Source: Candidatus Calescibacterium sp. (GTDB lineage: Bacteria > Calescibacteriota > Calescibacteriia > Calescibacteriales > Calescibacteriaceae). From it: a stretch of 64,000 bases of DNA. The notes below the pieces were generated by a model. It searched no databases and was not told where the DNA came from. It worked only from the letters and a program-made list of their open reading frames with translations. Made by a program: the position numbers and the translations under genes. The stretch is from contig JANXBU010000003.1 of assembly GCA_025060505.1 (NCBI GenBank), positions 62,001 through 126,000 of the forward strand, written 5' to 3'. Shown here piece by piece: positions 6,372 to 38,510 of this stretch. Position 1 is the stretch's first letter. Every line of letters begins with the position of its first letter.

Positions 6372-6458
6372 GCCGAGGTGGCGGAATTGGCAGACGCGTA
6401 GGACTCAGGATCCTATGGGGGAAACCCCGTGCGGGTTCAACTCCCGCCCTCGGCACCA
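6372..6458 (+). tRNA. tRNA-Leu (anticodon CAG)
   Basis: A class II tRNA with acceptor pairs GCCGAGG / CCTCGGC, the anticodon stem TAGGA / TCCTA closing the loop CTCAGGA (anticodon CAG), a long variable arm and an encoded CCA end. It follows the fucose synthase gene by 55 bp. In contrast to the other four tRNAs here, no coding region starts directly behind it. Confidence 0.97.
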
Positions 6459-16739: not shown

Positions 16740-17507
16740 CTAAGCTTTTTTCTCATCTGTCTTTTGAATCTGTGATATAAATCTGAAAAGTTCTATTGGG
16801 ACTGGTAATACCAATGTTGCTGTTTTTTCTGTTGCAAGTTCAGAGACTGTTTGCAGAAAACGTAGCTGAACTGTTATTGGGTTTTGTGCGAGGGTATCTG
16901 CTGCTTCTTTAAGTTTTTGTGCTGCTTGAAATTCAGCTTCTGCTAATGTTATTTTTGCTCTTCTTTCTCTTTCTGCCTCGGCTTGTCTTGCCATAGCTCT
17001 TTGCATCTCTTGGGGGAGATCTATATGTTTTATCTCAACAGCTGAAATTTTTACTCCCCATGATTCCGTTGTTCTATCAAGTATTTCCTGTATTGTAGTA
17101 TTTATTTTTTCTCTGTGAGCCAATATTTCGTCAAGTTCAACTTCTCCGCAAACTGAACGCAGTGTTGTTTGAGCAAGCTGACTTGTTGCATAAATGAAGT
17201 TTTCAACAGATACAATAGCTTTTCCTGGATCAACTACTCTGAAATATACAACTGCATTTATTTTGACTGAAACATTATCTTTTGTTATTACATCTTGTGG
17301 AGGAATATCCATTGTAATTATTCTGAGTGATACTTTTTGGAGTCTATCTATTATGGGTATTATCAAAACAAGCCCAGGTCCCCTTACTCCTACAAGTCTT
17401 CCAAGTCTGAAGACAACGCCTCTTTCATACTCCTGAAGGATTTTTATAGCCGATGAAAGTATGAATGCTCCAATTATAAGTATAGGTAATAAGACAGATA
17501 GTTCCAT
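16740..17507 (-). CDS. Slipin/stomatin-like SPFH (band 7) membrane protein
   Basis: A 255-residue protein with one N-terminal membrane segment (about 3-20), then an SPFH domain starting with [15 protein letters not shown] and including [13 protein letters not shown] and [16 protein letters not shown], and a charged coiled-coil ([18 protein letters not shown]) near the C-terminus. Such slipins form oligomeric membrane scaffolds. They are often paired with an NfeD protease, which is not seen here. The ATG lies only 9 nt after the 3' end of tRNA-Lys on the same strand, with no Shine-Dalgarno sequence. Confidence 0.94.
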
Positions 17508-17516
17508 TATTTGTTT

Positions 17517-17589
17517 TAGGCCGTGCGGGATTCGAACCCGCGACCCCCGGCTTAAAAGGCCGGTGCTCTTCCGTCTGAGCTAACGGCCC
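17517..17589 (-). tRNA. tRNA-Lys (anticodon TTT)
   Basis: Reading the minus strand, acceptor GGGCCGT pairs with ACGGCCT (one G-T pair), the anticodon stem CCGGC/GCCGG closes the loop CTTTTAA (anticodon TTT), and the T-arm GCGGG-TTCGAAT-CCCGC is perfect. CCA is not encoded. The slipin start codon follows after the 9-nt AAACAAATA. Confidence 0.97.
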
Positions 17590-22759: not shown

Positions 22760-22990
22760 ATGATTAAGGTTGATGCCGAATTTGATGCACGCGGGCTCAA
22801 GTGTCCGATGCCTGTTATAAGAGCCAAGAAAAAATTAGATGATCTTTCATCTGGTCAAGTTATACTCGTTATAGCAGACGATCCGGGAGCTAAGAAAGAT
22901 TTTCCTGCTTTTTGTATGCAAACCGGGCATGACCTTATAGATTTGAAAGAAGAAAATGGAGTTTTCAAGTTTTATATAAGGAAAAAATAA
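22760..22990 (+). CDS. tusA: TusA-family sulfurtransferase
   Basis: This small protein of 76 residues has the TusA signature: FDARGLKCPMPVIRAKK with the persulfide-carrying cysteine at about residue 15, then the VIADDPGAKKDFPAFC strand-helix. TusA shuttles sulfane sulfur to tRNA thiolation, molybdenum cofactor synthesis or sulfur oxidation systems. Between DsrE2 upstream and another DsrE-like gene downstream it is probably part of a sulfur relay. tRNA-Ala starts one base after its stop codon. Confidence 0.96.
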   Translation: MIKVDAEFDARGLKCPMPVIRAKKKLDDLSSGQVILVIADDPGAKKDFPAFCMQTGHDLIDLKEENGVFKFYIRKK

Positions 22991-22991
22991 T

Positions 22992-23066
22992 GGGGCTGTA
23001 GCTCAGAGGGAGAGCGCCGGTATGGCACGCCGGAGGTCGGGGGTTCAAATCCCCTCAGCTCCACCA
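22992..23066 (+). tRNA. tRNA-Ala (anticodon GGC)
   Basis: Acceptor GGGGCTG pairs with CAGCTCC (one G-T pair), the D-arm is GCTC/GAGC, the anticodon loop is ATGGCAC with anticodon GGC, and CCA is encoded. It lies inside the sulfur-relay gene run: one base after the tusA stop and 7 nt before the GTG of the next DsrE-like gene. Confidence 0.97.
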
Positions 23067-23073
23067 AATTTCT

Positions 23074-23361
23074 GTGAAAACCGTTCTATTTATAATCCAC
23101 ACAGATGATCAAGAAAAAATAGAGTTTGCAAAAAAATTCTCCCAAGCTCTACTGAAAAAGGGAGCAGATGTTGAATTGTTTCTTATGAGTAAAGGTGTTA
23201 AGTTTGCTTATGAACTCAAGGCGTTTGTGGATAAAATTTCGCTATGTTCAAGAAATGCTCAGGAACTTGGAATAAATGAAATCCAGGGCATTGATTTTGC
23301 AAGCCAATACAGATTGTCTGAAATGGTTCAGGATTCAGATCTTATTATCCCTCTGATATGA
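23074..23361 (+). CDS. Small DsrE-like protein
   Basis: A 95-residue protein with the DsrE alpha/beta pattern: VLFIIHTDDQEKIEFAKKF, then GADVELFLMSKGVKFA, a cysteine in ISLCSRNAQELGI at about residue 59, and a C-terminal SEMVQDSDLIIPL strand. It lacks the full TusBCD motif set. The GTG start comes only 7 nt after the CCA of tRNA-Ala and has no Shine-Dalgarno sequence, so translation probably relies on the processed transcript. A role in sulfur relay together with the DsrE2 and TusA genes just upstream is inferred from position. Confidence 0.82.
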   Translation: MKTVLFIIHTDDQEKIEFAKKFSQALLKKGADVELFLMSKGVKFAYELKAFVDKISLCSRNAQELGINEIQGIDFASQYRLSEMVQDSDLIIPLI

Positions 23362-29024: not shown

Positions 29025-29051
29025 TCTTTGTGTATGTATAATATCTTCATT

Positions 29052-29123
29052 GGGCGTGTAGCTCAGTGGTAGAGCGCTGCTCTCACAAGGCAGAGGTCGG
29101 AGGTTCGATTCCTCCCACGCCCA
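29052..29123 (+). tRNA. tRNA-Val (anticodon CAC)
   Basis: Acceptor GGGCGTG pairs with CACGCCC, the anticodon stem CTGCT/GGCAG closes the loop CTCACAA with anticodon CAC, and the T-arm GGAGG-TTCGATT-CCTCC is perfect. CCA is not encoded. The methyltransferase reading frame opens two bases after the discriminator base. Confidence 0.97.
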
Positions 29124-29229
29124 CTAAACGAAACTGCGTTCATCAAAATTCTGGCAAAAATTCTTCTCAGAACTATATAAATCTGGAAAGGATTTCTACA
29201 TAAGATCCGGCTACGGTTCATTATCTTCT

Positions 29230-29823
29230 TTGCAATACAGGATACAAAAAGTGAAAGATATAAGAGAAAAATTCTGTTTGTATGGAAATATACTTGATGT
29301 AGGATGCGGTATAGGGAATTTTGTTGAATGTCTTGATGGAAAATATTTTGGAGTTGATTTTTCGTATGATTCCGTAAGGGAACACAGAGGAAAGCACAGA
29401 AAACCAGTTGCTGTTGGAGATGCTCAGAATCTTCCTTTCAAAGAGAAAGTTTTCTCATTCGTGAATGCTGTTGAAGTGGCACAATATATGGAAAACCACA
29501 GAATTTTTATCAAAGAAATATCAAGAGTTATGAAAAATGATGGAATTGCTATTGTGATCTCACCAAATCCGGACTCAATATTCTGGATCGTTCGTCAGAA
29601 AATAAGAGGCAAATCCCCACTCAACTTTGTTAAATTAACAGAAATTATTGAATATGCGAAAAATTCATCACTTGAAGTTGTGTATATAGACGGAATATTT
29701 CCTATTCCATTCTGGAAGATTTTTGATAGATTCTTTCAGATTTTTATCCCGAAATTCTTGAAAGTATATTTTGTTGTGTTTTTCTCAAAATCATTCGTTA
29801 TGGTTTTTAGAAAAAAATCTTGA
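29230..29823 (+). CDS. SAM-dependent methyltransferase (class I)
   Basis: Motif I is ILDVGCGIGNF at about residues 21-31, motif II lies in YFGVDFSYDSVREH and the post-motif region has VGDAQNLPFKEK and VNAVEVAQYMEN, typical of Methyltransf_11-like enzymes. The C-terminal stretch is hydrophobic and may touch the membrane. The substrate is unknown. The start is unresolved: the first conventional codon is TTG 29230, but the same frame stays open and protein-like back to the stop at 29125-29127, with FYIRSGYGS just upstream. A CTG at 29134, 10 nt after tRNA-Val, may be the true start. Confidence 0.85.
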   Translation: MQYRIQKVKDIREKFCLYGNILDVGCGIGNFVECLDGKYFGVDFSYDSVREHRGKHRKPVAVGDAQNLPFKEKVFSFVNAVEVAQYMENHRIFIKEISRVMKNDGIAIVISPNPDSIFWIVRQKIRGKSPLNFVKLTEIIEYAKNSSLEVVYIDGIFPIPFWKIFDRFFQIFIPKFLKVYFVVFFSKSFVMVFRKKS

Positions 29824-37380: not shown

Positions 37381-37902
37381 TTACTCGATTGTTTCGACAT
37401 ATACATCTTGGTTTGAATATATAGAAATTTCTCCGGATATTTCTATCGCTTCTTTTACGATTTGGTCTGCTGTAAGGTTTGTGTGTTTATACAGAGCTTT
37501 TGCTACCGCAAGTGCAATAGGTCCTCCAGAGCCAATTGCTGCTATATTGTCATCTGGTTGGATTACATCTCCGTTTCCTGAGATTACAAGTATTTGATTT
37601 TTGTTTGCTACTATCAACATAGCTTGAAGTTGCCTTAATGCTCTGTCGGTTCTCCATTCTTTTGCAAGTTCTACAGATGCTTTCAGTAGATTTCCGGAGA
37701 ACTCTTGTAGTTTTTTTTCGAATCTTTCAAGAAGTGCTATAGCATCTGCTGTGCTTCCGGCAAAGCCCGCAAGAACTTGGCCATTGTATATTCTTCTAAC
37801 CTTTTTTGTTTTATGTTTGAATATTGTATCACCAAGGGTCATCTGACCGTCTGATCCCATAGCAACTTTATCGTGCCTTATTAGGGCGAGAACAGTTGTC
37901 AA
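37381..37902 (-). CDS. hslV: ATP-dependent protease proteolytic subunit HslV
   Basis: A 173-residue T1-family protease. The chain starts with Met-Thr-Thr, and the first Thr becomes the catalytic N-terminal nucleophile after Met removal. VAMGSDGQMTLGDTIFKHK and AGFAGSTADAIALLERFE are typical of HslV, as is IGSGGPIALAVAKAL. HslV forms a dodecamer capped by the ATPase HslU, whose gene is not in the window. The start is TTG 37902, only 9 nt after the CCA end of tRNA-Asp. No Shine-Dalgarno sequence is present. Confidence 0.96.
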   Translation of the reverse strand: MTTVLALIRHDKVAMGSDGQMTLGDTIFKHKTKKVRRIYNGQVLAGFAGSTADAIALLERFEKKLQEFSGNLLKASVELAKEWRTDRALRQLQAMLIVANKNQILVISGNGDVIQPDDNIAAIGSGGPIALAVAKALYKHTNLTADQIVKEAIEISGEISIYSNQDVYVETIE

Positions 37903-37911
37903 AGAGTGGGC

Positions 37912-37988
37912 TGGCGGGGCTGACGGGACTTGAACCCGCGACCTCCGGCTTGACAGACCGGCGTTCTAACCAACTGAACTACAGCCCC
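37912..37988 (-). tRNA. tRNA-Asp (anticodon GTC)
   Basis: On the minus strand, acceptor GGGGCTG pairs with CAGCCCC, the anticodon stem CCGGT/GCCGG closes the loop CTGTCAA with anticodon GTC, the T-arm CGGG-TTCAAGT-CCCG is intact and CCA is encoded. It lies 58 nt after rnpB and 9 nt before the hslV start, all on the same strand. Confidence 0.96.
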
Positions 37989-38046
37989 AAGAGAACAATA
38001 TAAAAATAATCACAAAAAATCAGAAATGCAAAAATCAGAAAATAAT

Positions 38047-38510
38047 AGGATTGAGAGATAAGCCGGTTTCTGTATTTGAGGAACATTTATCTGAGCGACC
38101 TACCCGGGAGTACAAGGGAAGCCAGAAGAACTTCCCATGAGCTTGTAGCTCATTTCCTCCCTACTTGGTCTTGCTCAGGGCAAGGTTTTCCTCTAAACTC
38201 GGTTACCCGAATTTAGGGGACGCTCTTACCGTCCCTTTTCACCCTTACTTTGTGAGTAAAAACCCACAAAGCGGTATTTTTTCTGTGGCACTCTCTGGGA
38301 CACTCATCCCCGGGCTCCATCTTTTCTGGGAGATATGCTGGGATAGCTCGTTTATGATTCTGCGGACAAATCGTCCATGCATCCCATCTTTCCCAGAAAA
38401 GACTTAACCCGTGCCCTCTTCTGGTTGAGACCGGACTTTCCTTCCAGCAGATTCTTCCCCCGGGTTACCCCGAAGGGTTCCTCTGCTGAACGTTCCTCTC
38501 CCTCAATCCT
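38047..38510 (-). ncRNA. rnpB: RNase P RNA (bacterial type A)
   Basis: The minus strand begins with AGGATTGAGG (P1), which pairs with CTCTCAATCCT at the 3' end. Close to the 5' end is GGAAAGTCCGG, the conserved CR-I sequence, and near the 3' end is AAACCGGCTTATCT, the conserved CR-V part. Several GC-rich helices lie in between. These are clear RNase P hallmarks. The length of about 464 nt is somewhat longer than the typical 350-400. tRNA-Asp and hslV follow downstream on the same strand. Confidence 0.95.

Follow-up and report, generated by a model that had tools for sequence, protein, structure and literature searches.

Start codons placed about 9 nt behind tRNA genes in Candidatus Calescibacterium and its relatives suggest tRNA punctuation in a bacterial lineage

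In the little-known and uncultured bacterial family of Candidatus Calescibacterium sp., protein-coding genes recurrently begin a few nucleotides behind a tRNA gene on the same strand, with a gap that is roughly kept between genera without conservation of the spacer sequence and with a lack of Shine-Dalgarno (SD) sites. This layout likely represents tRNA punctuation throughout the lineage, such that tRNA and gene would share a transcript and 3′ maturation of the tRNA would release an mRNA with a short leader. We infer co-transcription, cleavage and the mechanism of initiation at the tRNA-led genes from genome sequence.

tRNA-led genes in the window

The window (the whole 64,000-nt stretch analysed, a part of contig JANXBU010000003.1) was annotated for tRNAs with ARAGORN and Rfam, and the discriminator base of each tRNA was set from the acceptor and T stems. 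The two methods agreed on five tRNAs, located where a preliminary description of the sequence had placed them. The loci are as follows.

6372..6458, + strand: tRNA-Leu (CAG), the exception; next ATG (6670) lies 211 nt past the CCA end at 6458 (ARAGORN)
16740..17507, - strand: slipin (SPFH/Band 7), ATG start at 17507
17508..17516, - strand: spacer aaacaaata, 9 nt, tRNA-Lys to slipin
17517..17589, - strand: tRNA-Lys (TTT), without encoded CCA (ARAGORN, Rfam)
22760..22990, + strand: TusA-like CDS, named by sequence, not by HMM search; ends 1 nt before tRNA-Ala
22992..23066, + strand: tRNA-Ala (GGC), CCA encoded; middle of a CDS-tRNA-CDS arrangement (ARAGORN)
23067..23073, + strand: spacer aatttct, 7 nt after CCA, 10 nt from the discriminator
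23074..23361, + strand: DsrE-like CDS, GTG start
29037..29042, + strand: candidate -10 element TATAAT 5′ of tRNA-Val (sequence)
29052..29123, + strand: tRNA-Val (CAC), no encoded CCA, C74 present at 29124 (ARAGORN, Rfam)
29124..29133, + strand: spacer ctaaacgaaa, 10 nt, tRNA-Val to CTG
29134..29823, + strand: methyltransferase CDS, near-cognate CTG start as read
37381..37902, - strand: hslV, TTG start immediately 5′ of the N-terminal Thr codon (TIGR03692)
37903..37911, - strand: spacer gcccactct, 9 nt from CCA to the hslV start, 12 nt counted from the discriminator
37912..37988, - strand: tRNA-Asp (GTC), CCA encoded (ARAGORN, Rfam)
37997..38002, - strand: candidate -10 element TATATT, 9 nt 5′ of tRNA-Asp (sequence; lineage-wide enrichment at such spacing)
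38048..38505, - strand: rnpB, RNase P RNA class A, 5′ of tRNA-Asp (RF00010, 193.4 bits)

Re-measurement reproduced the gaps first described, namely 9 nt from tRNA-Lys to the slipin ATG, 7 nt from tRNA-Ala to the DsrE-like GTG and 9 nt from tRNA-Asp to the hslV TTG, with 10 nt between the tRNA-Val discriminator (29123) and the CTG at 29134. No SD site was present between these tRNAs and the starts, and tRNA-Leu stood as the exception at 211 nt. Functional HslV has a threonine at its N terminus, and the TIGR03692 model begins at the residue right after the TTG (model positions 1-171 match HslV residues 2-172), so that the TTG start is well fixed. The tRNA-Asp/hslV spacer measures 8-9 nt in four relatives, and the tRNA-Lys/slipin pair occurs in three relatives with a gap of 9-10 nt. 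For the methyltransferase behind tRNA-Val, the first canonical start lies 106 nt from the discriminator. tRNA-Asp is preceded on its own strand, at a distance of ~60 nt, by rnpB, so that the genes for RNase P RNA, for one of its tRNA substrates and for HslV are neighbours.

Recurrence of the tight gap in the lineage

The window belongs to genome G000 (2.28 Mb, 115 contigs, 46 tRNAs). Of the 41 genomes in the comparison set, just four share its family and the rest are related at the level of the domain alone; the lineage is thus isolated in this set, with no relatives above family level. Estimated completeness of the five family genomes (G000-G004) is just 82-86%, and they probably represent a deep lineage without some marker genes.

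All tRNAs were surveyed in G000, G001, G002 and G003 (bacterium HR19), four genomes from at least three genera, the analysis covering the tRNA loci and a sample of other stretches. Downstream genes were called with a dicodon gene caller trained separately on each genome, and the first ATG, GTG or TTG was taken as the start. A same-strand start no more than 15 nt past the discriminator followed 25/46 tRNAs in G000, 23/45 in G001, 22/44 in G002 and 25/45 in G003; inclusion of near-cognate starts would raise the number for G000 to 29 of 46. Among tRNAs whose next gene is on the same strand, the proportions were 25/39, 23/35, 22/38 and 25/35, respectively, and gaps in all four genomes peaked sharply at 9-10 nt. 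The layout therefore extends beyond the window, and the alternative foreseen in the preliminary description, ordinary spacing at most other tRNAs, did not materialize: the majority of tRNAs with a same-strand neighbour are tightly spaced in at least three genera. About one third of the same-strand neighbours lack a tight gap. In the unrelated genome G014, the same method found no tight gap (0/29).

For comparison under a uniform rule, the longest open reading frame of at least 90 aa was taken in every genome, and one control sample was drawn from 30 unrelated families in addition to G014. A gap of 6-15 nt was found for 90/134 same-strand neighbours in the lineage versus 5/46 in the 30 families (Fisher p ~1e-11), and for 0/17 in G014. 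The control value is an upper bound, because the inspected matches include several poorly supported open frames and one (L360) with an SD-like AAGGA. With called starts, 83/142 tRNA-CDS gaps fell at 6-15 nt, compared with 19/349 of the gaps between same-strand CDSs in these genomes (p ~1e-36), for which the median was 65 nt. All of these p-values are too small, since they take no account of relatedness among genomes or of orthology among junctions; it is safer to rely on the number of distinct tRNA-gene junctions (37) and on the difference in proportions. A domain-wide survey of DNA patterns was discarded as evidence, as the T-loop pattern was unspecific and the majority of its matches were not tRNAs.

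Few genes start less than 6 nt from a tRNA, indicating that the gap also has a lower bound. Close starts were absent after five tmRNAs, one 5S gene and rnpB, which makes the layout specific to tRNAs; a role of stable RNAs in general as punctuation is unsupported. On the other side of the tRNA, the nearest same-strand CDS is usually far away (median 92 nt), so that most coding regions do not have a tRNA at each end, and CDS-tRNA-CDS arrangements such as window 22760-23361 are few.

Conservation and anchoring of the distance

The led genes are functionally mixed: hslV, slipin, DsrE-like, PfkB kinase, SecE, GAPDH (gap), HlyD-like, MreB, DUF2203, DSHCT helicase, M50 peptidase, thioredoxin, RF1 (prfA), CoA-binding protein, DnaX, BpsA, PRPP synthetase (prs), FIST, YfiO/BamD-like lipoprotein, ferritin, IspE and OppD-like ATPase. 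Pairs with a gap of at most 25 nt in both members numbered 18 between G000 and G002 and 18 between G000 and G003. Spacer identity in these shared pairs was 0.41 and 0.35, respectively (33-41% across genera), which we estimate to be near the expectation from composition only, and the start codon often changes between genera. The gap was identical in 6/18 and 8/18 pairs. In a few others the difference reached 12 nt, in part because the first start may be false; gap length is thus kept approximately, not exactly.

Approximately 40-47% of the tRNAs in the lineage encode CCA. If the leader were fixed from the CCA, the gap counted from the discriminator should be 3 nt longer for CCA-encoding tRNAs than for the others. 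The observed difference was 0.38 nt (95% CI -0.47 to 1.22), an interval that excludes 3, indicating that it is the tRNA body, at the discriminator, that anchors the ruler and ruling out the CCA in this role. In the CCA-less tRNAs of the four genomes, position 74 is a C in 98/103 cases, with a neighbouring gene or none, while the following position is free except for G and positions 75-76 vary. This pattern suggests that selection acts on C74 alone in these tRNAs, and its retention could reflect either a cut after C74 or contacts made by RNase P.

Initiation signals and start codons

SD-like 4-mers were found in just 2/79 tRNA-gene spacers, which are rich in A, C and T and contain ~5% G. Genome-wide, SD-like motifs precede ~4-29% of starts, depending on class, and the standard anti-SD is retained at the 16S 3′ end. 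At ordinary genes with an upstream gap above 25 nt, a TATAAT-like hexamer stands 12-16 nt before the start in 46/304 cases versus 13.4 expected (p ~5e-13), the placement expected of leaderless transcription, suggesting that such transcription is widespread in the lineage. Short or absent leaders accordingly look general in these genomes rather than peculiar to tRNA-led genes.

TATAAT-like hexamers are also enriched 14-18 nt before tRNAs (16/95 versus 4.8 and 13/85 versus 4.2 in the background). The tRNA occupies the place where the promoter of a leaderless gene would stand, and tRNA bodies have a GC content of 64%. Within the tRNA-plus-spacer stretches, a TATAAT-like hexamer (5 of 6 positions) was found in just 5/95, three of them in one Leu tRNA family.

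ATG serves as the start of 54% of tRNA-led genes versus 86% of other genes (p ~2e-11). Behind six tRNAs, the frame of the led gene stays coding 5′ of its first canonical start, as far as a near-cognate codon that stands 8-13 nt past the discriminator (window 29134, L015:1490, L018:1489, L024:1492, L232:1489 and L242:1487). The genes are as follows.

CTG, methyltransferase, window 29134: coding potential alone, weak
ATA, glycosyltransferase, L015: coding potential alone
ATT, Rsm22-like protein, L018: coding potential alone
ATT, methyltransferase, L024: coding potential alone, weak
CTG, IspE, genome G002: family model begins at residue 3 of the extended reading
ATA, OppD-like ATPase, genome G002: family model begins at residue 1 of the extended reading

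Given where their models begin, the canonical starts of IspE and the OppD-like ATPase would cut off conserved residues. Several led genes thus appear to use CTG, ATA or ATT as starts, most strongly these two.

Alternative explanations of the layout

The close spacing might result from operon compaction alone, with tRNAs as ordinary first cistrons towards which genes have crept, the variably cleaved or uncleaved transcript being translated and the distance having no function. tRNA-protein operons are established in bacteria (e.g. E. coli tufB), and at most 5/46 control neighbours show a tight layout of this kind. However, CDS-CDS pairs in the same genomes are not packed in this way (median 65 nt, 19/349 at 6-15 nt), and compaction would account neither for a gap that is roughly kept when the spacer sequence is not, nor for its lower bound. 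Ordinary compaction was rejected on the CDS-CDS gaps, and we regard this explanation as unlikely. It is more doubtful still that the intact tRNA acts as a structured 5′ leader, whereby the 30S subunit would load on an uncleaved precursor, the folded tRNA standing at a set distance upstream, and the state of the tRNA (charging, processing) would regulate the gene. Anchoring of the ruler on the tRNA body rather than on the CCA would suit such a leader, but from general structure a full tRNA ~9 nt 5′ of the start should clash with the mRNA exit region of the ribosome, and genes as different as hslV, mreB, prfA, gap, secE, prs, dnaX and thioredoxin have no common theme for regulation.

Two further explanations seem very improbable. 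Led genes could be transcribed from their own promoters, inside the tRNA or further upstream, making tRNA processing irrelevant to them. A tRNA can in principle contain start sites, a possibility that the preliminary description had itself raised as contrary to its proposal, but the scarcity of TATAAT-like hexamers in the tRNA-plus-spacer stretches (5/95) lends it no sequence support. Slightest of all is the chance that the start codons are mis-assigned and the true starts lie further 3′. The gene caller is simple and some first starts are ambiguous (e.g. TTG ATG at tRNA-Val-TAC), yet family models align within a few residues of the start for HslV, GAPDH, RF1, IspE, OppD-like ATPase, PfkB and DUF2203, and the gap is conserved between genera, so that mis-assignment is largely refuted.

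A model for release of tRNA-led mRNAs

Under tRNA punctuation, transcription would begin just 5′ of the tRNA, usually from its own promoter, or further upstream where a gene adjoins the tRNA; tRNA-Ala of the window, 1 nt behind the preceding CDS, would be an example of the latter. RNase P would generate the 5′ end of the tRNA, and an endonuclease would cut at the discriminator or a few nucleotides past it. The mRNA product would carry a leader of ~5-10 nt, its length set by the cut site, that is unstructured, poor in G and free of SD sites, and the ribosome would initiate by proximity at the first AUG-like codon near the new 5′ end. Such release of a nearly leaderless mRNA by cleavage of the tRNA would fit all of the sequence evidence and would suit these genomes, where many of the ordinary genes seem to have little or no leader as well. 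The promoter-like hexamers before tRNAs and their scarcity inside them bear on co-transcription indirectly. Against the model count the standard anti-SD of the 16S 3′ end, the SD-like motifs of some genes, the third of same-strand neighbours that lack a tight gap and the search for a bona fide RNase Z, which found none; moreover, by the rules of E. coli, very short leaders combined with TTG or GTG starts would make poor templates, although leaderless GUG and UUG starts are reported in P. acnes (PMC3848588).

RNase E/G is encoded in all five family genomes. A search of four of them found no bona fide RNase Z (best matches 36-51 bits; cut-off, 293), and since they are 82-86% complete this does not prove its absence. 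The only RNase Z-like matches are short MBL-fold proteins nearer to PDEase_II/Lactamase_B_2 (L296:1402-2181, L293:1345-2172). Classical RNase Z seems to be missing from genomes in which more than half of the tRNAs lack an encoded CCA. As a more tentative and rather less probable elaboration, an endonuclease other than classical RNase Z may cut at a fixed distance from the discriminator, C74 being one candidate site for a cut on its 3′ side, and the first AUG-like codon ~9 nt on, AUA, AUU and CUG included, would be chosen by position alone, tying mRNA supply to tRNA maturation.

Relation to known systems

tRNA punctuation is regarded as typical of compact mitochondrial genomes, and in the model for animal mitochondria the tRNAs are excised by RNase P and ELAC2/RNase Z. 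The present lineage resembles that system in having tRNAs directly 5′ of protein genes and apparent AUA/AUU near-cognate starts, and tRNA excision would likewise set mRNA 5′ ends and leave minimal leaders. It differs in having a bacterial chromosome of more than 2 Mb instead of one genome-length transcript, in that about half of its tRNAs lead genes, in its regular 9-10 nt spacer and in the lack of a clear RNase Z; many of its tRNAs also seem, from their upstream sequence, to have their own promoter. Because cleavage is a prediction from the layout, the search for RNase Z gave no clear match and most genes do not have a tRNA on each side, we do not count the lineage among systems of the mitochondrial type.

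Transcripts joining a tRNA to an mRNA are known from E. coli tufB. In T. kodakarensis, a tRNA-Lys lies inside the 159-nt 5′-UTR of TK0306 (PMC4247193). These are single cases of a transcript in which a protein gene follows a tRNA, as would hold here, whereas in the lineage the short, regular gap recurs throughout the genome.

Leaderless mRNAs and open reading frames adjacent to -10 elements have been described in Deinococcus-Thermus and Actinobacteria (PMC12340547, PMC3160421 and PMC3848588), and the last source reports leaderless GUG and UUG starts in P. acnes. The lineage shares with these bacteria a -10-like element right before many starts, little use of SD sites and tolerance of GUG and UUG. 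Their short leaders are set by the transcription start site, whereas the tRNA-led genes would use RNA processing; the texts of PMC12340547 and PMC3160421 make no mention of tRNA. The near-leaderless state is usually held possible just for the first gene of a transcript (PMC3160421), and tRNA punctuation would open this state to genes that follow another cistron.

Unusual tRNA 3′ processing, with cuts near C74 and many CCA-less tRNAs, is described for P. acnes and S. coelicolor (PMC3848588, PMC4681348), and P. acnes is reported to have no obvious RNase Z (PMC3848588). Many CCA-less tRNAs are common to these bacteria and the lineage, as is the lack of a clear RNase Z in the case of P. acnes. In both species, cleavage between the Cs of CCA was observed experimentally, whereas the lineage shows just retention of an encoded C74 (98/103 CCA-less tRNAs). 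Generation of mRNA starts by this processing is not described in the passages of the two papers covered by the analysis.

In agreement with the preliminary description, full-text searches of open papers found no recurring bacterial tRNA-to-start layout. Other lineages may share it, given that ~31 other families were sampled and subscription papers lay outside the search. If the proposal is true, a mitochondria-like layout at dozens of core genes of a free-living lineage would show that bacteria, too, can evolve punctuation, probably when their translation is already tolerant of very short leaders. Initiation that is defined by position and independent of SD sites could then be studied at the naturally occurring starts of the led genes, non-canonical codons included, and the lineage would be a candidate in which to look for an alternative tRNA 3′ nuclease.

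Changes of tRNA partner between genera

The DsrE-like gene stands behind Ala-GGC in G000 and behind Ala-CGC in bacterium HR19, and the YfiO/BamD-like gene behind Leu-TAG in G000 and behind Leu-CAG in G001 and bacterium HR19. In sequence, it is as if the tRNAs leading these genes had been exchanged or their anticodon had changed.
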